Positions 2,691 to 14,191 of a stretch of 17,103 bases of DNA are shown piece by piece. This stretch comes from an uncultured Thermoplasmata archaeon (lineage in GTDB: Archaea; Thermoplasmatota; Thermoplasmata; Methanomassiliicoccales; Methanomethylophilaceae): assembly GCA_946545675.1 (NCBI GenBank), contig CAMNNR010000009.1, forward strand, positions 1 to 17,103, in the 5' to 3' direction. Under the pieces are notes generated by a model. It saw only the letters and a program-made list of their open reading frames with translations. It did not search any database and was not told the DNA's origin. The translations under genes were made by a program, and so were the position numbers. Within the stretch, counting starts at the first letter, position 1; every line of letters begins with the position of its first letter.

Positions 2691-2721
2691 TTTATACTGG
2701 GGAGTGTTAGGGTAATATATG
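2691..2721 (+). promoter_or_regulatory. TATA box for a leaderless atwA transcript
   Basis: TTTATAC at 2691-2697 is centred about 25 bases before the atwA ATG (2719), the normal archaeal TATA-to-start distance, so the transcript would begin at or next to the start codon. No convincing Shine-Dalgarno sequence precedes the ATG (GGTAATAT only), which agrees with leaderless translation. This promoter would drive the whole marker-protein operon. Confidence 0.6.
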
Positions 2722-4311
2722 TCATCGGTCGAACTGATCACGATCGAGAACGTCACCAAAAAATTCAACGGCAAAGTCGTTTTGGATAACTTCAGCACTG
2801 TACTCAAAACCGGACAGATTACCGGTCTGATCGGCAGAAGCGGGGCTGGAAAGAGCGTTCTCCTGCACATGCTTAGAGGCAATCCCGAGTACGAACCTGA
2901 TTCGGGACGTGTCATTTACCACGTGAACCGCTGTGTGAGCTGCGGGGCGCTGGGTCTGCCAATCGAAGGCACCCACTGTTCCAAATGCAAGTCGGACATG
3001 GAGAGGGTAGATGTCGACTTCTGGAACCTGAAAGAGTACCACCCCCTGAGGGAAGCCATCAGGCAGAGGATCGCAATCATGCTCCAGAGGACCTTTGCCC
3101 TCTGGGGAGACAAGACCTGTATCGAGAACGTGCTCGAGGCAATCGATGAGAACTGCTCCAACAAGGTCGAGAAGGCAATCGAACTCCTCGAGTTCGTCAA
3201 CATGAGTCACAGGACCATGCACATCGCAAGGGACCTGTCCGGAGGAGAGAAGCAGAGGATCGTCATGGCCAGGCAGCTTGCGAAGGACCCGCTCTTTTTC
3301 CTCGCTGACGAGCCCACCGGTACCCTCGACCCCTACACCGCGGAGATAATCCACCAGAAGCTTGTCGAGTATGTGAGGTCTCACAACATCTGTATGATGT
3401 TCGCATCCCACTGGCCCGAGGCTATTGACAAGATGGCAGATGACGCATTCTGGCTCGACGGCGGAGTTGTCAAGATGTCCGGCGAGCCCAAAGCCATCAC
3501 CTCCAAGTTCATGGAGGGATACCACTTCGACAGGAGCGAAATCGAGAACGTCGGAACCGAGATCGTCAGGCTCGAGAACGCCGAAAAGCACTTCTTCTCC
3601 GTAACCAGGGGAGTCGTCAAGGCTGTCGACGGTCTCAACTTCACAATCAACGAGAGGGAATGCTTCGCATTGGTAGGATTCTCTGGAGCCGGCAAGACCA
3701 CCACTTCCAGGATGATTGCCGGTCTCTCCAACGCAACCAAAGGAAAGGTTGAGGTCAGGATTGGTGACGACTGGGTCGACATGTCCAAGGACGGTTTCGA
3801 GAACAAAGGCCGTGCGACACCCTACATCGGTGTCCTCCACCAGGAATACACCCTGTACCCCTTCGACACGGTTCTCCAGAACCTCTCCACCAGCATCGGA
3901 CTCACCATGCCCGCCGAACTGGCACGCATGAAAGCCGCACAGGTGCTCGTGAGTGTCGGATTCGAGAAGAAGGATGTCAACAGGATCCTCGAATCCTACC
4001 CTGACACCCTGTCCGTCGGAGAGTGCCAGAGGATCGCATTCGCACAGGTCCTCATCAGGGAACCCAGGATCGTCATCCTCGACGAGCCCACCGGTACCAT
4101 GGACCCCATCACCAAGGTCATCGTTGCCAAGTCCGTCCTCCGCGCGAGGGAGACCCTCGGCGAGACCTTCATCGTCGTCAGCCACGATATGGACTTCGTC
4201 AGGAACTGCTGCGACCGTGCGGCATTTATGAAGGACGGAAAGATCATAGACATCGGAAAGCCCGACGACATGATCGCCAAATTCGACGAACTCAAAGGCC
4301 CCATGGAATGA
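2719..4311 (+). CDS. atwA: AtwA, component A2 of the MCR activation system
   Basis: This is the soluble ATP-binding protein (component A2) that supplies ATP hydrolysis for reductive activation of methyl-coenzyme M reductase. Its 530 residues contain two ABC ATPase domains and no membrane segment. Domain 1: Walker A GRSGAGKS (39-46), signature LSGGEKQR (173-180), Walker [14 protein letters not shown]-loop ASHWPE. Domain 2: Walker [10 protein letters not shown] (320-328), signature LSVGECQR (431-438), Walker [14 protein letters not shown]-loop VSHD. Domain 1 contains an inserted zinc-ribbon-like knuckle with Cys72, Cys75, Cys87 and Cys90 (CVSC, then CSKC). The start ATG at 2719 fits a TATA box 25 bases upstream. 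It is the first gene of the operon; mcrC follows after 13 bases. The tandem ABC layout and methanogen neighbours make the assignment firm. Confidence 0.96.
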
Positions 4312-4324
4312 AGAGGGTTGGATT

Positions 4325-4945
4325 ATGAAGCAGCAGATCGGAAGGCATCTGAGCTTCGTGGAGTGCAGAGACGCACAGGGTCTCGGAGTAGGAGGAGGAC
4401 TGGCCCAGAGGGCGACCATCTCGGAGAGCGGGAAGGACGTCTGCGTGATCGCAATGGGTCCCGGCAGGAGGCACATCACCAAACCTGTCTGCGAAATCAC
4501 CTACGCTCTGAGGGAGGCGGGGATCAACGCCTCCGTTCTGGTCGTGAACTCAGGATCAGGGGTTCCGACCGACGCACCTGATGTAACCACGGGTTCGAGA
4601 TTCGGACTGGATCCCATCGAAGTCGAGAGAATCAGGCAGTACAAGGTGGCGTTGATTCATCTCGGCAATGTGAGGAACCACATCACATACAAGGCTAGGC
4701 TCATCCTCAGGAACGTGGACATCCCCGCGGTCGTCGTGGCACAGTGCCCGGTGGACTTCGAGGATTTCGCGGCCATCGGGGTGAAGACCCGCGACGTCAT
4801 GCCTGACGAGGACAATATCGGAACCGTCGGGACCATCATGGACGTAGTCACCGGAGTCGTCAGGGGAGTGACCTGTTCCCAGGAGAAACTGGATGAGATC
4901 GCTTCCAAACTCCAGAAGATCCTGCCCAAGGAGGGCTCCGAATGA
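4325..4945 (+). CDS. mcrC: McrC, MCR operon protein C / activation complex subunit
   Basis: This 206-residue protein is of the McrC family (methyl-coenzyme M reductase operon protein C). McrC has been found with the ATP-dependent MCR activation fraction (component A3a) and is not part of MCR itself. Family features: N-terminal [19 protein letters not shown] (13-31), the central [13 protein letters not shown] (46-58) with Cys56, [12 protein letters not shown], then [16 protein letters not shown] and [16 protein letters not shown]. In many methanogens mcrC lies inside mcrBDCGA. Here it follows atwA and no mcr structural gene is in view. It overlaps mmp3 by ATGA at 4942-4945, so the two are translationally coupled. 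The central block resembles Mmp7, suggesting a shared fold. Function is by family; the cysteine role is inference. Confidence 0.95.
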
Positions 4946-6453
4946 AGGTCGTAGTGAACGGCAGGGAGAAGACCCTCAAGGAGGGAGCGACCCTCAAGGA
5001 TGCGGTCGCCGGCGAGAAGTTCGCCAAGGATTCCGTCATATCCGTGCACCTCTCCACCGACAAGGTGACCGAGGTTACCAACGATTTCACCATCGAGACT
5101 ACCGCAGGCGAGATGGTCCTCCATCTGTACGATACTCCCGAAGCGAAACTCTTCAGGAGCATCACCAAGGACATCAAGGCTTCCAACGTCAGGTGGGCCA
5201 ACAAGGAGCTCACCGCGTTCGGTTCCTTCCCTACGGACATCGAACCCGATGCCACTCCCGGCGTCTACAGGCGCTACGAGTGCTTCTTCTCCTTGGGTGG
5301 AAACGACAACCATTCCACCTACCTGATGGTGTCCAAGGACAACTTCACCAAGGCATACGGTGCGGGAACGGGGAAGATCGGAAAGATCACCGTCGGAAGG
5401 CACCTCCTCAACAAGGTCAAGGAAGGGCAGTCGATCGTGGACATCCGTCCAGTGGTCTCGGAGACCAGCCAGGACAACGTGGTCATCACCAAGGACCTGT
5501 CCTATCCTATGGCGGACGGATATACAGTCAGCACCAACATCCTCATCAAGCTCAGGCACGACTCGCCGAAGTCCGCGGAGCAGATTCTGGTGGTCGCTTC
5601 CAAAGGATACTTCAACGTATCCGAAGGGACCGGAACCTTCATGGGCTGCAAGGACGACATGGACGTCGACCTCGATGCAGAGGTCTGCGGAGTCCGCGAT
5701 GTCGGCGAGGTGATGGTCCGCAACAGGGGTGTCGGAAAGGGACACATCCTGATGTACAAGGAGAGGAGGCAGCTTTCGCCCGAACTCTCCACCGCCGGAA
5801 CAGTCACGAGGGGAATGGCCCTGGTCTCCAGAGCCAAGGCGGGAGACATAGTCTCCATCGAGACCGATCCCCCCAGGATCCTCTCGGTCGGAATGACCCA
5901 GAAGGCCGGGGAGGAGTTCCTCGCATCCTTCGGAATCAAGCAGATAAGGAAGGGTCAGACCACCGACGATGCGATAATCGTCGACCAGGGACCCGAGGCT
6001 ACCATGGAAGCCCTCTCCAAGGGCGAAGTGGAGACCTTCGGAGTCCCCAAGGACCAGGTCTACAGGATCGCCATCACCACCGAGGACCAGGACACTATCC
6101 ATTACTTCAAGAAGGTCACCGGACTGAGCCACAAGTCCATCGGACAGCTCAAGGTCCAGTTCTCCTTCCCCGGTTCGCCCATGGTCACCTTCTACGGGGA
6201 CGAGGCAAGGTCCCAGAACCTGTATCCCCAGGATCCGTTCAAGAAGTGCAAGAAGGGAGAGATCGGAGTCACCAACCAGTCCCGTCCCCACCACGGTCTC
6301 ATCGGAATCAGGCTGCAGGACAGCAAACAGTACGGACCCACCGGAGAGGAGGGTTACGGTACGAACATGGTCGGGAACTTCCTGGGCGATCTCGCTCAGA
6401 TGGAGCTCCTCGACGATGACGAAATCATCTACATCACGGAGGCCAAACTATGA
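4942..6453 (+). CDS. mmp3: Methanogenesis marker protein 3
   Basis: This 503-residue protein matches methanogenesis marker 3, present essentially in all methanogens and recovered with the MCR activation (A3a) proteins. It begins with a small ubiquitin/ThiS-like beta-grasp-type stretch ([20 protein letters not shown], 1-20) extending to about residue 60. The rest is a long, mostly beta-strand body with motifs such as [33 protein letters not shown] and, near the end, [18 protein letters not shown]. No membrane segment or signal peptide is seen, so it is cytoplasmic. The ATG at 4942 overlaps the mcrC stop, and its own stop (6451-6453) overlaps the mmp6 start, so it is firmly inside the operon. 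Its molecular task is not known from sequence; membership of an MCR-activating assembly follows from published purifications as I recall them. Confidence 0.94.
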
Positions 6454-6875
6454 GTGAAGCAAGAATCACAAGGCTGCTTATGATCTCCCCCAACTCGATG
6501 GTCACCCCGGACCAGCTGGTCCGTGTGGTCCAGACCATGGCCCCGGAGATTAACGTCAAGGAAACCTGCTACGGCTGCCTCGCGGAATCGGACGCCAAGA
6601 CCATGGCGGCCGTGATGAAGAAGGTCCGCGAACAGTACGGCAATGAGGTGTTCTCCAAAGTCAGGGGATACCCCGTGGGAGACCCCAGGAGGTGCCGCGC
6701 ACAGCACGGAACCAGGCCGGGCTTCGCACAGCTCGAGGCCGAATGGGAGACCCTTCCCCTCATCCAGAGTGCACTAGACGCCATCGATGCGGGAGACACC
6801 GCCTATGTGGCACCCGTGGAGAAGAAACCCCTTCCAGTCAAAGACCTCAAACAAATCAGCGAGGCGTACAGATGA
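6450..6875 (+). CDS. mmp6: Methanogenesis marker protein 6
   Basis: This 141-residue protein is recognised as methanogenesis marker 6. It is soluble, with an N-terminal alpha/beta segment (RITRLLMISPNSMVTPDQL), a CxxC in ETCYGCLAES (Cys40 and Cys43), a basic motif VGDPRRCRAQHGTRPGF and a helical tail ending [10 protein letters not shown]. The start ATG overlaps the mmp3 stop, and its stop overlaps the mmp5 start (ATGA both times), so stoichiometric expression with its neighbours is likely. The function is unknown. The CxxC plus the adjoining mmp5 and mmp15 genes suggest a thiol, metal or Fe-S role; this is inference from context. Confidence 0.92.
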   Translation: MSEARITRLLMISPNSMVTPDQLVRVVQTMAPEINVKETCYGCLAESDAKTMAAVMKKVREQYGNEVFSKVRGYPVGDPRRCRAQHGTRPGFAQLEAEWETLPLIQSALDAIDAGDTAYVAPVEKKPLPVKDLKQISEAYR

Positions 6876-7309
6876 AGATATTCATAGATCCCCCTAACAG
6901 CATGATCCTCTTCGACCTGGTGGAGAGGTTCGGCCACGAACCCCTGAGTTCGATGGCTCTCATCCAGGAGAAAGTCGACAACATCGAGGTCGACATGCCG
7001 CCCATGAACGTCACCCTTGACGACGTCGTCAAAGGACTCAAGTACGCCGGAGTGGAGGTCCCTTCCGGAATCAGGGGAAGGCTGGCCATCTGGGGACCCA
7101 TGATCGAGGCTGCCGATGCTGCCATCATCATCGAGAACCCCCCGTTCAGCTTCGGATGCGTCGGATGCGACCGTTCCAACGAGCTCACCAAGTACCGCAT
7201 CAAGAGGCGCGGCATCCCCGCCCTCACCGTGCAGTACCCCTCCAGCGAGGAGGAGGCCAAGACCATGGTCGGACAGATCAAGGATTTCCTGGGAGGTCTG
7301 AAGGAATGA
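6872..7309 (+). CDS. mmp5: Methanogenesis marker protein 5
   Basis: This 145-residue protein is recognised as methanogenesis marker 5. The ATG at 6872 overlaps the mmp6 stop and yields [20 protein letters not shown], a typical start for the family; an upstream in-frame extension would run through mmp6 and is rejected. Features: [19 protein letters not shown], a strand segment [20 protein letters not shown] carrying CxxC (Cys96 and Cys99), and [19 protein letters not shown]. It is soluble, with no membrane helices. It ends by overlapping the mmp15 start at 7306. No activity is established to my knowledge. The CxxC and the neighbouring archerase-like ATPase suggest partnership in an Fe-S or redox step (inference). 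Confidence 0.92.
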
Positions 7310-8529
7310 CCATCAGGATCGCCCAGCTCTCCTGCGGTACCGAGTACAGCGGAGTACAGTACGAGATCGAGTCCGCAGCCCGTTCCGTCGGAGCCAAGAT
7401 CGTCTACCCTGATGTCTCCTACGACCAGGTCAAGAGCGCCCTGGAACGTTTCGGATTCACCCCCAAATCGCCTCAGCTGCAGCTCATGATCGCCCGTGCG
7501 GTCAGCCTCGCCGACGGTCTCTACGAGGCCGATGCGGTATTCATCACCACCTGTTTCAGGTGTGCGGAGGCCGCCCTGGTCAGGAACGAGCTCAGGAGGT
7601 TCATCCAGGAGAACACCAGGCTCCCCGTCGTCACCTATTCCTTCACCGAGAGGCTGAAGGCATCCCAGCTCCTCACCAGGATGGAGGCTCTCGTCACCAT
7701 CGTCTCGAGGAAGGAACTCCTTGCCAGGGAGAGGCAGACCGGAATCACCGCGGGTCTCGACTCCGGATCGTCCACCACCAAGTGCGTCATCATGGAGAAC
7801 AACAAGATCATCGGAAAGGCATGGACTGCATCCGGAGATGTCGTCCAGTGCGCCACCGAGGTCCTGGAGGAGGCCATGAAGATGGCCGGTATCGAGTTCA
7901 AGCAGATCGAGGCCATGGGAACCACCGGATACGGAAGGTTCACCCTCGGTACCCACTTCAAGGCCAAACTCGTGCAGGAGGAGCTGACCGTCAACTCCAA
8001 GGGCGCCGTCTGGCTGGCCGACAGGCAGAGGGGAGAGGCCACCATCATCGATATCGGAGGAATGGACAACAAGGCCATCACCGTCAGGGACGGAGTCCCC
8101 GACAACTTCACCATGGGAGGAATCTGTGCCGGAGCTTCGGGACGTTTCCTCGAGATGACCGCCAGGAGGCTGAAGGTCCCCATCGGGGAACTCGGATCCT
8201 ACGCAGTCAAGGGTAACTGGGTCAATGCGAAGATGAACTCCTACTGTTCCGTCTTCGGAATCCAGGACCTGGTCACCACCCTCGGTGCCGGTAAGTCCTT
8301 CGAGGACGTCGCGGCCGCAGCCTGCCACTCTGTCGCGGAGCAGGTCTACGAGCAGCAGCTCCAGGAGGTCGACGTCAGGCACCCCATCATCCAGGTTGGC
8401 GGAACCTCCCTCAACAAAGGACTCGTCAAGGCAATCGGTGAGGTCCTGGGAGAGCCCCCGATCGTCCCGCCGGATTCCCAGTACATCGGAGCCGTCGGCG
8501 GTGCCCTGCTGAGCTCCGGAGTGCTCTGA
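7306..8529 (+). CDS. mmp15: Methanogenesis marker protein 15, archerase-like BadF/BcrA-type ATPase
   Basis: This 407-residue protein is methanogenesis marker 15. An N-terminal alpha/beta domain (about 1-140) contains LSCGTEYSG and a CFRC motif (Cys83, Cys86). The C-terminal domain (about 145-407) is of the BadF/BadG/BcrA/BcrD family, ASKHA-fold ATPases that activate radical or low-potential Fe-S enzymes. It has phosphate-1 [20 protein letters not shown], phosphate-2 [11 protein letters not shown], the [10 protein letters not shown] block and a late VGGTSLNKG. Cys274 (in ICAGASG) and Cys314 (in YCSVFG) match the two cysteines that bind the bridging [4Fe-4S] cluster in 2-hydroxyacyl-CoA dehydratase activators. 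The ATG at 7306 overlaps the mmp5 stop; an in-frame upstream extension is antisense-like sequence inside mmp5. ATP-driven electron delivery is a strong inference, the partner is unknown. Confidence 0.94.
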
Positions 8530-8534
8530 GGTGA
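8528..8534 (+). promoter_or_regulatory. Shine-Dalgarno sequence of mmp17 overlapping the mmp15 stop
   Basis: GAGGTGA overlaps the mmp15 TGA (8527-8529) and lies 6 bases before the mmp17 ATG at 8541. This is the only junction from mcrC to mmp7 that does not use an overlapping start, and it has instead a near-perfect anti-16S match. It fixes the mmp17 start. Confidence 0.65.
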
Positions 8535-8540
8535 GTACCG

Positions 8541-9122
8541 ATGGCAGCCGAAACAGTGGTCACCGGAACCGACGAATACGGAAACGAGAGGTACAAACAG
8601 CTCTACGAGGAGCTACTCTTCGACGTCGGAAAACTGGCGGCCATAGAAAAATCATACCTGGTGCTCAAGCCCAAGGAGCCCCTCTTCATCGTATCGGTGA
8701 AGATGAAGGCCCGTCCCGCGGCCAAGAAGATCGGGGACGTGGCATCCACCAGGTCCGAGAGGGACACGATTTACGTGAGCATCTCGGACGAGATGTATGC
8801 GCCGGGGATCCTCAAGGCCCTTTGGGATACCTACGGCAGGGACAACGTCCAGCAGCTGGACAGGTTCGACATCTCCGTCAAGGGAGCCAAGAACTCATTC
8901 GAGGTCGATGCCATAGACGTGGAATCCCACGAGCACCCCGTCCAGGAGATCCTGGGTGCCCTCTACAGGGTCCTTCCCGAGGGTATAAGGAACCGCAGGA
9001 CGTTCTCCGACAGCGACGTCGTCACCGTGGTGGCCACCGAGGAGATAATGAAGCCCGCCTACATCGAGGAGGCCACGATCGTTCACGAAGCCATGCAGAA
9101 GGGAGGCGAGATCAATGTATGA
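8541..9122 (+). CDS. mmp17: Methanogenesis marker protein 17
   Basis: This 193-residue protein is recognised as methanogenesis marker 17, one of the proteins found with McrC, Mmp3, Mmp7 and AtwA in the MCR activation fraction. It is soluble, mixed alpha/beta, and has no cysteine at all, so it is unlikely to hold an Fe-S cluster itself and may be a scaffold. Recognisable stretches are RYKQLYEELLFDVGKLAA, RSERDTIYVSISDEMYAPG and a central GAKNSFEVDAIDVESHEHP. The start at 8541 is supported by GAGGTGA six bases upstream. Its end overlaps the start of mmp7 by eight bases (9115-9122), indicating coupled translation. Confidence 0.92.
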   Translation: MAAETVVTGTDEYGNERYKQLYEELLFDVGKLAAIEKSYLVLKPKEPLFIVSVKMKARPAAKKIGDVASTRSERDTIYVSISDEMYAPGILKALWDTYGRDNVQQLDRFDISVKGAKNSFEVDAIDVESHEHPVQEILGALYRVLPEGIRNRRTFSDSDVVTVVATEEIMKPAYIEEATIVHEAMQKGGEINV

Positions 9123-10053
9123 GGTCATAATGTACGACGGCGGAATCTACCGTTCCGACGAACTCTTCGAACTCATCGAGGATGTGGGAGGTGTGGTGCT
9201 GATGAAGAACCGCAGTTCCCAGATGCTTACCGTGACGATGTCCATTCCCTCCGAGGACAGGGAGGTCGTGGAGGCCCTCTGCAAGGACATCGGAGGACAG
9301 GTCAAGGAGGTGCCCCTCGCGGGTACCGAGATCGCCGTGGTGGGTCCCACCCTCGGCCGTCACCATATGCCCCACCCCATCTGTGATATCGCGGAGTACC
9401 TCAGGAGACTCGGTGCGGTCACCGTGGTCATGGGTATCTCCAGGGGAAGGGGGAAACTGACGTCCCAGATCAGTCTCGCTGAGACCTCTACCATCGACGA
9501 GTACGATGCATGCGTGTTCATGCTCGGCAACTTCAAATCCTGTGTGGAGACCAAGGCCGACTTGCTGGTCAACAAGATCAACATCCCCACCGTGCTGGTC
9601 TGCGGACCCAAACCCGACGGTGTCGACCACACCTGCGACGCCATCGTCCACGGTGTCGGAAGGAAGGCGTCCCGTATGAGGGAGCCTGCCGACAGGGCCA
9701 AGCTCGAGGAGATCGGAGACCGTATCGAGGAGATCCTGGCAGACAAGAAGAAGGCCCTGGAGGAGGACCCGCCGTTCGTGCACCCCTCCGAGATCAAGGC
9801 CCTGCTCGAGAACTACGAACCCATCGACATGTGTCTGAGGCCCGCACCCCTGGTCATGCACCTTGACGGCATCAGGGCCAAGATCTCCTACGAGGAGTAC
9901 CACGAGGAGATCGAGAACATGGTGGTCTACGGGCGCCGTCTCGGGGATGTCTGCGAGATCACCCCTTCCAAGATCAACGACAGCAGTATGCTGATACGCA
10001 TCAAGACGAGGTCCCAGGTGGCCTACGAGGATGCGCGGAAGGCAAAACAATGA
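9115..10053 (+). CDS. mmp7: Methanogenesis marker protein 7, McrC-like activation subunit
   Basis: This 312-residue protein is recognised as methanogenesis marker 7. The N-terminal domain (1-~75) begins MYEVIMYDGGIYRSDELFEL. The middle (about 78-170) carries GPTLGRHHMPHPICDIAEYL with Cys90, then LGNFKSCVETKADLLVNK and IPTVLVCGPKP. This block parallels McrC residues 44-145 in order and spacing, so the two are probably paralogues, Cys90 matching McrC Cys56. The C-terminal part is helical and charged (IGDRIEEILADKKKALEE), then alpha/beta. It is cytoplasmic. It has been found in the MCR activation complex together with McrC, Mmp3, Mmp17 and A2. The start overlaps mmp17, and its stop overlaps the ATG of the next gene. 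Confidence 0.94.
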   Translation: MYEVIMYDGGIYRSDELFELIEDVGGVVLMKNRSSQMLTVTMSIPSEDREVVEALCKDIGGQVKEVPLAGTEIAVVGPTLGRHHMPHPICDIAEYLRRLGAVTVVMGISRGRGKLTSQISLAETSTIDEYDACVFMLGNFKSCVETKADLLVNKINIPTVLVCGPKPDGVDHTCDAIVHGVGRKASRMREPADRAKLEEIGDRIEEILADKKKALEEDPPFVHPSEIKALLENYEPIDMCLRPAPLVMHLDGIRAKISYEEYHEEIENMVVYGRRLGDVCEITPSKINDSSMLIRIKTRSQVAYEDARKAKQ

Positions 10054-10466
10054 GCGGGGTGAGGAAGGGGACCTACCTCCTCTTCGTCACGTTCCTGAGA
10101 AAGACAAACATCACCGTGGGGGCCCTGGGCCCTCACACCTTTTCAAGAGGCACGTACTGCTACGTGGGCAGCGCCATGGGTGGTCTCGACCAACGCCTGA
10201 GAAGACATCTGGCACATGAGAAGAACCTGAAGTGGCACATCGATTATCTCACCACCGTGTGTTCCACTTCCGAGGCATGGGAATCCTATCCCGATTTCCT
10301 GCCCGAATGCGACCTTGCCGCCTTGGCGGAGAGGTGCGGAGCGATCCCGGAGATGCCCGGTTTCGGCTGTTCGGACTGCGGGTGCAAGACCCACCTTTTC
10401 AAGGTGAACGGTACCGTGAAGAGGAAGATCATCGCCGAATCCCTTGTGAAACGTCACGACTCGTAA
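10050..10466 (+). CDS. DUF123 (GIY-YIG-like) family protein
   Basis: This 138-residue protein matches the archaeal DUF123 family, a GIY-YIG-nuclease-like domain often free-standing or fused to endonuclease III-type proteins. Visible family features: GTYLLFVTF at the N terminus, YCYVGSAMGGLDQRLRRHL (about 32-50, corresponding to the YIG/VGS and Arg motifs), KWHIDYL and the Cys-rich GFGCSDCGCKTHL near the C terminus. Its ATG (10050) overlaps the mmp7 stop, so it is translated as the last gene of the activation operon, though nothing in its sequence links it to methanogenesis. It ends with TAA, the only TAA among the clear genes here. A nucleic-acid role is expected from the fold; the substrate is unknown. 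Confidence 0.88.
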   Translation: MSGVRKGTYLLFVTFLRKTNITVGALGPHTFSRGTYCYVGSAMGGLDQRLRRHLAHEKNLKWHIDYLTTVCSTSEAWESYPDFLPECDLAALAERCGAIPEMPGFGCSDCGCKTHLFKVNGTVKRKIIAESLVKRHDS

Positions 10467-10475
10467 CGTGTATGT

Positions 10476-10489
10476 ATGCATTCGTGCAT
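10476..10489 (+). repeat. small hairpin with TTCG loop between DUF123 and transporter genes
   Basis: ATGCA and TGCAT flank TTCG, giving a 5-bp stem with a stable tetraloop, 9 bases after the DUF123 stop and 8 bases before the likely transporter ATG. It may mark an mRNA processing or end point, or be chance. Confidence 0.25.
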
Positions 10490-10497
10490 CAACTGGC

Positions 10498-11355
10498 ATG
10501 GATTGGCTGCTGTTCGCTGTTTTGTCAGCGTTCTTTGCCGGGATAACCTCCATTCTTGCCAAGCTGGGGATCAGAGGGATTGACTCCACGGTGGTAACAG
10601 CAATCCGTACCATCGTCGTGACCCTGTTCGCCTGGCTCATGGTGTTCGTGGTCGGTTCATTCGACGGGATTTACGACATCGGCTAGAACACGCTGTTGTT
10701 CCTCATCCTGTCTGGATTCACCACCGGTGCATCCTGGCTATGTTACTTCAAGGCCCTCGAGAAAGGCGATGTGAACAAGGTCGTACCCATAGACAAATCG
10801 AGCATAGTCATTACCGTCCTGATGGCCGTAGTCCTGTTGGGAGAAGGTATCTCAGTGTGGGGCGGAGCCGGAATAGCATTCATAGCCGTGGGTACCATGG
10901 CGATGATAGAGAAGAAGGACACCGAGAATGTTCCAGGCGGGACCTGGCTCATCTATGCTGTCGGGTCTGCCGTATTCGCAGCCTTAACTTCCATCTTCGG
11001 GAAAGTGGGCATCGAGGGAGTGGAATCCACATTGGGTACTGCAATCCGTACATTGGTGGTTCTGGGTATGTCGTGGATGATGGTTCTTCTCGTGGGGAAG
11101 AAGGACGAAATAAGGGGCATCAGCAGGAAGGCCATGGGTTACGTCGTCGCTTCCGGATTCGCCACGGGGGCTTCATGGCTGTGTTTCTACCGGGCCCTGC
11201 AGACCGGCCCCGCCAGTGTGGTCGTCCCCATCGATAAGCTCAGCATCCTGGTATCGGTGATTCTCGCCTTCGTCATATTCGGGGAATGCCTGAACAGGAA
11301 GGCGGCGGCAGGTCTGGCATTGATCACCGCCGGTACCCTTATGATGCTGTTCTGA
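10498..11355 (+). CDS. EamA/DMT-family membrane transporter with one in-frame TAG (possible pyrrolysine)
   Basis: This is a drug/metabolite-transporter superfamily permease made of two EamA repeats of about 140 residues, roughly ten helices in all. Repeat 1 includes SAFFAGITSILAKLGI and SGFTTGASWLCYFKALEKGD, then VVPIDKSSI; repeat 2 has SAVFAALTSIFGKVGI and SGFATGASWLCFYRAL, then VVPIDKLSI. The only interruption is TAG at 10684-10686 (codon 63), with perfect frame continuity on both sides. It falls in the loop before the SGFTTGASW helix, where repeat 2 reads ISRK: the TAG aligns with Arg. Without it the protein is 285 residues, the family norm. In Methanomassiliicoccales TAG is read as pyrrolysine, so the gene may be functional; otherwise it is a recent nonsense pseudogene. 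ATG 10498 (MDWLLFAVLS) is preferred over 10468. The transported substrate is unknown. Confidence 0.85.
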
Positions 11356-11415
11356 GGAAATTGTTGTCATTGTGCGGGGTTTGTACTGGCCAGCAGACCC
11401 AGGTCTTCACCAACC

Positions 11416-11488: not shown

Positions 11489-14191
11489 ATGGCTTGCAAC
11501 AAAAACAACTGCGAACTTTCCGCTGATGTGATCAACGACCTCAAATCCGTTGTGGGTGAGGCGAACGTCAAGGTCACCGAGAGTGGGGTCACCGTTACGG
11601 TATCCAGTACCGAAGAAGTAGCCGCTATCACCAAAATCGCCAAAAAAGCCAAGGTCGTAGCAGCAATTTGTGGAAACACCCCCATCACTGTGGCATTCTC
11701 TGAGAAGATGCAGCAGATCGAGGTCGTTCCCGAGGATCTCGCTGTGAAGGCAAAGGCCGGCGCAACCTACAGCGCCATCATCGAGGCCGTCGGAGCACAG
11801 GGACTCATAGTCGGATCCCGCCCCTTCCACACCAAGAGGGTTACCGTCGGCGAGTGGGCCGGTTCCAACGCCGCAGGATACGGTACCTACAAATACGGAC
11901 CCGCCAAGGACAACATTCTCAACCTCGAGGTCGTCCTCATGGACGGAACCGTCATCGAGACCGGTTACGACGACATCGGCGCATACATGTCCGCGTACAA
12001 CCTCAACCAGATCTTCTCCGGAGCAGAGGGTGCACTCGGAATCATCACCTCTGTAACTCTCAAATGCTACCCCGCAGGTGTCACCAAATTCGTCACCTAC
12101 GACGTCGCCGGCGGACTCAAGGAAGTGTGCCCTGCCGTCAAGGCCGTGGCCCGCCACCCCAACCTCAAACCCATCAAATTCACCATGCAGGTCGTCGAGG
12201 GCAAGACCGTCGTCTACCTCATGTACCAGGGAGACGAGAAGTTCGTCGACCAGGATGTCATCGAGACCGATGAGATCTTCGCCGCCGTCGGCGGAGTGAG
12301 GTCCGAAGAGGGAAGCATGAGCAATGCGGCCAACAAGTACAAGGTCGTCATCCCCTCCAAGAACATCTGGAAAGCGAAGGCCAAGTTCGTCTGCATCCTC
12401 GACAAGTACACCGCCCTCCTCACCACCGACAACATCGATGATTACAACTACGACCTCGCCGAGTGCGAAGGAAGGAAGGCTTGCGGATGGGCATTCGCAG
12501 AGGGCAACATCGAGAAGGTCCGCGACGAGGAGACTGCGAAGTTCATGCAGGCTCTGAAGGACTTCATCGCCAACCCTGATACTGACTCCATCGCAAAGGA
12601 CGCCGACAAGCTCTCCCGCGATTTCAGCGACGAGATCAAGAACAAGCTCATCGAGGCTGTCGGAAAGGACAATGTGAACGTAGCCGGAGAGGAGAAGCTC
12701 CTCTACAGCCACGACCTCGCACCTCTGCCCAAGATGGCAGGACTCGCATTCGACAACATGCCCGACGTCGTTGTCAGGCCCAGCACCACCGCTCAGCTTT
12801 CCGCGATCATGAAGATCGCCTACAGGCACGGTGTCTGTGTCACCCCCCGCGGAAACTCCACCTGGGGTCTCGGAGGAGCACAGCCCGCCTTCGGCGGTAT
12901 CGTCGTCGACTGTTCTTCCAAGATGAACAAGATCGTCGTCGATGCGAAGAACATGATCGTCAAAGTGCAGGCAGGAGCGACCTGGAAGGCCACTCTCGAT
13001 GCCTGTATGAAGGAAGGATACATCGTGGGTTCCTACCCCTCCTCCTTCCCCGCAGGAACCATCGGAGCCTGGCTCGCCACCAACGGTATGGGTATCGGTT
13101 CCTTCAAGTACGGTTCCGCAAAGGACAACGTGCTCAACATGGAGGTCGTCCTCTCCAACGGTGACATCATCCACACCGGATACGACAACATGGGCGACTA
13201 CAACTCCGGACTCAACCTCAACCAGTTCTTCGAGGGATCCGAGGGAACACTCGGACTGTTCGGAACCGTTACCTTCAGGATTCACCCCATGGGCGTCATC
13301 AAGCCCGTGGCGTACGAGTTCGAGCATCTGGCAGATGCCAACCCCGTCATCCAGAAGATCATCGCCCACGCAAGTGTGAAGCCCCTTCACATCGCATGGT
13401 CCGACGAGAACCACTTCGCCAACCAGAGGAGGGCCGGATGCCACGCACCCGATGTGAAGAACCTCCTCTGTGTCACCTTCCAGGGTGCCCAGAACTACGT
13501 GGACATGGAGATCGCTGAGGTGGATGCCATCGTAGCAGGAGTCGGCGGAAAGAGGATTGCAGACGAGATTGCCAGCCACGAGTGGGACGAGCGCTGCTAC
13601 GAGTTCAGGGCCAGGAAGGCCGGAGTAGGAGAGATCCCCGCCGAGGTCATCGTACCTGCCAAGCGCTGGGGCGACTTCGTCGGAGAGTGCTACAAGGGCT
13701 TCGACGTCATGAAGATGGAGATGGGAGGAGTCATCGGAGTCATGGTCGACAACCAGACCACCCTGTTCATGCCCTACTACTTCAAGGACGACGAGCTCCT
13801 CACCGGAATGCTCGCATTCTCCTTCAACTTCTATCTCGGAGACAGGGCCGTCGAGTACGGCGGAAGGACCACCGGATTCGGTATCTTCTTCGCATGGAAC
13901 CTCGACAACGTCCACGACGCCAACACCGTTGCCCTCATGAGGGACATCAAGACCTTCATGGATCCCCACGACGTCATGAACCCCGGACACGTCGTCTGCG
14001 GAATGACCAAGTTCGGAGTCAACATGAGCCACGGACTCATGGGCCTCGGAAGCAAGCTCATGCAGATGGCCAAGAAGATCATGCCCGAGGACCACACCTT
14101 CTCCAACAACCTGGAGAGGTTCAAGTTCTCCGCTTACACCGAGATCAAGGCAGAGGACAGGAAGCACGTCCTCGGCCGCGGTTACGAGTGA
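11489..14191 (+). CDS. tandem-duplicated FAD-binding (GlcD/PCMH-type) oxidoreductase-like protein
   Basis: This 900-residue protein is two homologous copies of an FAD_binding_4/FAD-oxidase C unit (lactate/glycolate dehydrogenase, VAO/PCMH superfamily). Repeat 1 (about 1-405) has NAAGYGTYKYGPAKDNILNL and LNQIFSGAEGALGIITSVT. Repeat 2 (about 405-870) has TNGMGIGSFKYGSAKDNVLN and LNQFFEGSEGTLGLFGTVT, offset by about 405 residues. Only repeat 2 keeps the FAD pyrophosphate-binding block PRGNSTWGLGG (453-463) and the C-terminal DPHDVMNPGH; repeat 1 has a shortened AAICGNTPITVAF there. One catalytic and one degenerate half is therefore likely. No signal peptide, membrane helix or HdrD-like Fe-S domain is seen, although homologues elsewhere pair with Fe-S oxidoreductases. 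Strong promoter, Shine-Dalgarno, terminator and narrow codon choice suggest high expression. The electron donor is unknown; a 2-hydroxy acid is the family default, by inference. Confidence 0.88.
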   Translation: MACNKNNCELSADVINDLKSVVGEANVKVTESGVTVTVSSTEEVAAITKIAKKAKVVAAICGNTPITVAFSEKMQQIEVVPEDLAVKAKAGATYSAIIEAVGAQGLIVGSRPFHTKRVTVGEWAGSNAAGYGTYKYGPAKDNILNLEVVLMDGTVIETGYDDIGAYMSAYNLNQIFSGAEGALGIITSVTLKCYPAGVTKFVTYDVAGGLKEVCPAVKAVARHPNLKPIKFTMQVVEGKTVVYLMYQGDEKFVDQDVIETDEIFAAVGGVRSEEGSMSNAANKYKVVIPSKNIWKAKAKFVCILDKYTALLTTDNIDDYNYDLAECEGRKACGWAFAEGNIEKVRDEETAKFMQALKDFIANPDTDSIAKDADKLSRDFSDEIKNKLIEAVGKDNVNVAGEEKLLYSHDLAPLPKMAGLAFDNMPDVVVRPSTTAQLSAIMKIAYRHGVCVTPRGNSTWGLGGAQPAFGGIVVDCSSKMNKIVVDAKNMIVKVQAGATWKATLDACMKEGYIVGSYPSSFPAGTIGAWLATNGMGIGSFKYGSAKDNVLNMEVVLSNGDIIHTGYDNMGDYNSGLNLNQFFEGSEGTLGLFGTVTFRIHPMGVIKPVAYEFEHLADANPVIQKIIAHASVKPLHIAWSDENHFANQRRAGCHAPDVKNLLCVTFQGAQNYVDMEIAEVDAIVAGVGGKRIADEIASHEWDERCYEFRARKAGVGEIPAEVIVPAKRWGDFVGECYKGFDVMKMEMGGVIGVMVDNQTTLFMPYYFKDDELLTGMLAFSFNFYLGDRAVEYGGRTTGFGIFFAWNLDNVHDANTVALMRDIKTFMDPHDVMNPGHVVCGMTKFGVNMSHGLMGLGSKLMQMAKKIMPEDHTFSNNLERFKFSAYTEIKAEDRKHVLGRGYE

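Follow-up and report, generated by a model that had tools for sequence, protein, structure and literature searches.

What does a single in-frame TAG mean in a transporter gene that is otherwise open from end to end? The gene in question encodes an EamA/DMT-family protein (PF00892) and lies on the forward strand at 10498..11355 of the window, by which we mean the whole stretch of 17,103 nucleotides that was analysed. It comprises 285 codons plus a TGA stop when its one TAG, at 10684..10686 (codon 63), is read through. A sequence-only reading had proposed pyrrolysine (Pyl) at this position, through either a proteome-wide tolerance of TAG as sense or a regulatory switch set by Pyl supply. We consider it very likely that this TAG is read as sense and that the transporter is made by read-through with Pyl. 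The pyl genes, the disuse of TAG as a terminator and a tolerance of TAG beyond the methyltransferases are upheld; the switch is not.

The interrupted gene and its neighbours

The TAG is the sole interruption between 10498 and 11355, where there is no further stop and no frameshift. When the read-through protein is scanned against Pfam, PF00892 matches it in two stretches (E=1.7e-35), the best of which (residues 3-135) spans the TAG. The claim of a frame intact on either side of a single TAG is therefore borne out, by the 285-codon open frame together with the full EamA match. Family membership is seen in two tandem EamA repeats and in the two helical repeats of a predicted structure (mean pLDDT 85.5, pTM 0.83), whose helix list we read as suggesting ten transmembrane (TM) helices. 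In an alignment of 121 proteins, made up of the 120 database matches listed and protein P0002, the window protein retains 121 of the 123 columns in which conservation reaches 95% or more. Pairwise NG86 estimates of dN/dS against three DNA relatives come to 0.038 for the part preceding the TAG and 0.039-0.048 for the part that follows; these are rough ratios, with dS near saturation, and pairwise dN/dS cannot separate recent loss from function.

Under the standard code the gene is split into open reading frames of 72 and 219 codons, and the standard-code caller returns solely the second piece (10696..11355, forward strand; 219 aa), opened at a TTG, which would be without TM1 and TM2. By eye, no ribosome-binding site is visible before TTG 10696, nor before ATG 10498, a comparison that does not decide whether two proteins are made.

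On either side, and on the same strand, lie a DUF123 protein (PF01986; 10050..10466) and an FAD-linked oxidase (PF01565, PF02913; 11489..14191), for which the ATG at 11489 was chosen although the longest frame opens at 11372. Further upstream (2719..10053, forward strand) is an mcr-accessory cluster identified with NCBIfam models: component A2, McrC, Mmp3 and methanogenesis markers 6, 5, 15, 17, and 7, of which markers 6 and 7 score under the curated cut-off. Together with the short PylS described below and the relatives, these genes suggest that the organism belongs to the Methanomassiliicoccales. Adjoining this cluster, on the reverse strand, is a truncated piece of a carbon starvation gene, CstA, at 1715-2520, which lies in two frames matching positions 295-346 and 415-557 of the Pfam CstA profile and is a real pseudogene.

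Pyrrolysine decoding and the use of TAG

The sequence-only reading had suggested looking for pylBCD, pylS and the tRNA-Pyl gene in the same genome, and a complete set is present on contig C16 (L050), in the order two mtmB genes, tRNA-Pyl (CUA), pylS, pylB, pylC, and pylD. The tRNA gene at L050:7317, with anticodon CUA, is one that we take to be pylT from its resemblance to tRNA-Pyl sequences of this order, together with its position adjoining pylS and its anticodon. ARAGORN does not report it at L050, and its free fold alone (z -0.43) is not a cloverleaf. Nor did ARAGORN, which is clearly incomplete in that it misses tRNA-Pyl, find another suppressor tRNA: none of the seven tRNAs in 20 stretches of the genome has a CUA anticodon.

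The pylS gene (L050:7423-8247; 274 aa) reaches 271 bits where the domain cut-off is 178; it exceeds the cut-off of the C-terminal-domain model and not that of the full-length one, which is what the short form of PylS described for this order (PMC3941956) should give. For pylB, pylC, and pylD the NCBIfam scores are 432, 347, and 229 against cut-offs of 348, 248, and 150, respectively. Each of the two adjoining mtmB genes carries a TAG at codon 202, with Pfam matches running across it (E 4.3e-223 and 3.5e-211). With pylT, pylS, pylB, pylC, and pylD alongside TAG-bearing methylamine methyltransferase genes, the genome is, by gene content, one that decodes UAG. No Rfam match to a PYLIS element, PYLIS_1 included, was found near the transporter TAG (10400-11400), and such signals are not obligatory (PMC4153887). 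An mtmB sequence (L002:278-380) matches PYLIS_1 below the gathering score, at 39.7 against 70 bits.

How TAG is used as a stop was examined in 21 contigs that total 358,359 bases, or 31% of the assembly. Gene calling by codon usage, with a simple caller restricted to genes of at least 60 codons, returned 337 genes, 13 of them open at the 3' end; the remaining 324 end in TGA (284), TAA (33), or TAG (7). By comparison, TAG makes up 21.7% of intergenic stop triplets (678/3,121), and within the window it ends none of the 14 other called genes. TAG as the normal stop of many genes would have spoken against decoding; it is nearly absent in that role, and the observation that other secure genes avoid it extends from the window to the sample. 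Five of the seven nominal TAG ends are internal to genes (the two mtmB genes, an ABC ATPase, a CbiR-like gene, and a transposase), and two end doubtful open reading frames, one of low complexity and without a domain match on scanning (L039), the other of 60 codons and without a supporting domain (L038). There is thus no convincing TAG terminator among the seven, and in the sampled 31% of the assembly TAG is effectively not a terminator.

The three interrupted genes outside the mtmB pair deserve a closer look. The ABC-exporter-like ATPase (L049:2-742, contig C15, forward strand) has its TAG at codon 176, past the end of the Pfam ABC_tran match at 166; NCBIfam ABC matches (16-227, for example) do span it, all those shown being below full-length cut-offs, and at this position H, R, L, or K is found in nine loci that are 32-36% identical. 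The CbiR-like/AP_endonuc_2 TIM-barrel gene (L055:7833-8792, contig C21, forward strand) carries TAG at codon 76. Its Pfam match (88-247) begins past the TAG, and an NCBIfam match (55-204) spans it below cut-off. Eight same-genus relatives (56-71% identity), aligned through the site, show D, T, V, E, T, T, M, and M, and two further relatives (36-38%) show Q and W; all ten have a sense codon there and an unbroken frame. The DDE transposase (L041 18773-19999, contig C6, reverse strand) is cut by the end of the stretch; in what is left of it, the TAG is codon 265 and falls within the Pfam match (28-305).

As a control we turned to the other two stops. Coding-like in-frame extensions of at least 25 codons follow 32 of the 317 TGA- or TAA-ended genes, of which 30 were fused and scanned, leaving out L038:8493-8912 and L038:11881-14553. 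Counting such genes as themselves read through was considered and set aside; many are adjacent in-frame genes (pylS-pylB, for instance), and a domain-crossing test was therefore used. The listed Pfam stretch spans the TGA or TAA in none of the 30 fusions, the scan giving the best stretch per family, so that a further match within a repeat family might go unseen. Pfam matches over cut-off span four of eight TAGs, namely the seven nominal ends and that of the window, seven of these eight having been scanned. The comparison to be made is this one (4/8 vs 0/30, Pfam over cut-off), since TAG cases were judged by Pfam, NCBIfam, and relatives and controls by Pfam alone. Fisher values for read-through count all 317 TGA and TAA stops as uncrossed, with 30 scanned, and count NCBIfam matches and relatives for TAG.

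The pattern can also be followed across the family, in which pylS is found at E <= 1e-40 in 75 of 102 genomes. We compared stops in our own sample with those in 88-100 kb from each of eight relatives, using genes of at least 100 codons. The five genomes with pylS, our own included, use TAG for 9 of 620 stops (6/301, 0/78, 1/80, 2/92, and 0/69), and the four without a pylS match for 28 of 310 (4/73, 14/73, 0/83, and 10/81), so TAG stops are rarer where pylS is present (Fisher p=9e-8). A strict link is contradicted by genome G059 (L107-L111), which has no pylS match and is 96% complete, yet ends none of 83 genes in TAG; this would be explained if a contig is missing or if Pyl decoding was lost recently. 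In another genome, G011, one TAG-ended call (L085:1228-2586, reverse strand) has an in-frame extension that resembles MttB by eye, and is probably an mttB gene cut at its Pyl codon.

Codon 63 among the relatives

In the predicted structure, residue 63 is the first of the helix spanning 63-89 (TM3), with a short loop before it. Among 282 columns of the 121-protein alignment, column 63 ranks 16th in variability, with P in 53 proteins, G in 36, S in 14, R in 8, A in 5, K in 2, and F, Q, and E in a single protein each. Because the column is variable and the position opens TM3 behind a short loop, codon 63 is a permissive site for TAG.

Three DNA relatives of 81-82% identity have TCC (Ser) here, and five proteins of 81-92% identity (P0006-P0008, P0012, and P0015) have Gly. 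Remoter relatives show V, G, A, S, R, Q, T, P, or L, and one at 32% identity shows M. The relatives were aligned from residue 1-3 on, and the comparison leaves out an Asp in L031 (a repeat-against-repeat alignment), the L033 and L034 rows, and the second L024 row. The relatives aligned in this way have a sense codon at codon 63, and their frame continues.

These residues do not fit the history offered by the sequence-only reading, which noted an Arg at the corresponding place in the protein's own second repeat and derived the TAG from AAG or CAG by one base. That Arg does not serve as a guide to the ancestral codon. The relatives span S, G, A, V, R, Q, T, P, or L, with K in 2 of 121 proteins, and the expected contrast of K or R with TAG in orthologues gave Gly or Ser in the nearest ones. 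With TCC or Gly in these, a one-step origin from AAG or CAG is not supported. By the codon table, at least two base changes separate TCC or any Gly codon from TAG, and a path through an unsampled intermediate is needed.

None of the listed relatives shares the TAG. Apart from the window itself, none of the 44 listed matches from the 102 family genomes has TAG at codon 63; transporter matches, weak ones included, occur in 39 of the 102, and the TAG is confined to the window's own genome. None of the 120 listed protein matches is a near-identical or independent same-species record, the best being 92% identical over the full length with Gly at codon 63. The allele is thus known from one metagenome-assembled genome (MAG). 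An orthologue of the EamA gene in another genome (L017, G013) has one internal TGA.

Known amber genes and competing readings

Pyl outside the methyltransferases has a history. Archaea with a so-called "Pyl code", reportedly described in Science in 2025 with proteomics, are said to read all TAGs as pyrrolysine, and would resemble the present genome in their genome-wide use of TAG as sense. The tRNA-His guanylyltransferase is likewise said (Heinemann, 2009) to have acquired Pyl "by neutral evolution"; it is also a case outside the methyltransferases with a neutral origin, in a different gene.

Closer to home, "Ca. Methanomethylophilus alvus" has 16 predicted non-methyltransferase Pyl proteins and uses TAG for 1.6% of its stops (Borrel et al. 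2014, PMC4153887); the list (Table 7) includes a 289-aa "bacterial/archaeal transporter family protein", AGI86346.1. Here too there are TAG-interrupted non-methyltransferase genes, one of them a transporter, and the same neutral argument. The species is a different one, and AGI86346.1 is set beside our gene by its description as a transporter. A search for EamA genes in 15 family genomes gave no full-length gene with a TAG, the sole TAG-bearing row being a 111-aa frame in G022. The rumen isolate ISO4-H5 has 46 genes interrupted by an in-frame amber codon, among them metabolic genes as well as 10 insertion sequence elements (PMC5011839). It shares with the present genome a complete pyl operon and amber codons in non-methyltransferase genes, and its insertion sequence elements parallel our interrupted transposase; its amber account, in the available portion of that source, does not name an EamA transporter. 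In the light of PMC4153887 and PMC5011839, which report many other amber genes, the statement that Pyl is known mainly from methyltransferases no longer holds for this order. The transporter adds one more example to a use of TAG as sense that has already been published, and the idea is thus not a new one, although we found no mention of this particular EamA gene in the available portions of the two papers.

How, then, might the transporter be made? The tRNA-Pyl (CUA), charged by PylRS with pyrrolysine from PylBCD, would decode UAG genome-wide. UAG is all but given up as a terminator in this genome, and Pyl-tRNA would compete with a release factor that, to judge from stop usage, may have little UAG work left. 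Where a site is permissive, a change to TAG would be nearly neutral, and the EamA transporter would have gained its TAG at codon 63 on its own lineage, remaining full length with Pyl63. The sequence features, the pyl operon, the scarcity of TAG stops, and several further in-frame TAGs are observed; actual incorporation of Pyl, neutrality, and a working transporter are what we infer.

It is unlikely that an assembly or sequencing error lies behind the TAG, the true codon being sense and the gene ordinary. The MAG is fragmented (153 contigs, 70.6% complete), no second record of the species is among the listed matches, and relatives have sense codons at this position, all of which an error would accommodate. 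If pseudogenes or sequencing errors were the cause, however, TGA and TAA should show such interruptions too, and the control fusions contain none spanned by a Pfam stretch while several TAGs are spanned; the distance of at least two base changes from the codons of the nearest relatives also argues against error, though a one-step ancestor may have gone unsampled. A recent pseudogene, with translation ending at the TAG and the transporter lost, would suit a lineage-specific TAG in a gene that is not universal in the family. We judge it very unlikely in a frame that has neither frameshift nor second stop, keeps nearly all of its conserved columns, and is interrupted by a codon that terminates hardly anything in the sample; the real pseudogene in the window, the CstA remnant, is frameshifted as well as truncated.

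The methylamine-dependent switch, by which the TAG would act as a regulatory device and full-length transporter would appear solely at high Pyl supply, is highly improbable. The pyl genes do adjoin mtmB, and Pyl supply could in principle track methylamines, but the TAG is not common to the other listed matches, the site is among the most variable columns, no PYLIS match lies around it, and PMC4153887 interprets a very low frequency of TAG stops as pointing to Pyl being expressed constitutively. Termination at the TAG with re-initiation at TTG 10696, 10 bases past it, giving two proteins, is scarcely conceivable: the relatives are single proteins, and the second piece would, on the predicted structure, lack TM1-TM2 of the DMT fold. 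That Pyl63 is functional, such that the full-length transporter depends on Pyl supply, is highly doubtful; if true, it would tie transport by this EamA protein to methylamine metabolism.

Read-through as Pyl is the preferred reading. There is a practical message for annotation: when MAGs of this family are annotated with standard-code gene callers, TAG-bearing genes are split. In our sample an internal TAG accounts for the cut in five of the seven genes that nominally end in TAG. The transporter itself offers a clean, testable case for UAG as an ordinary sense codon in some Pyl-decoding archaea.
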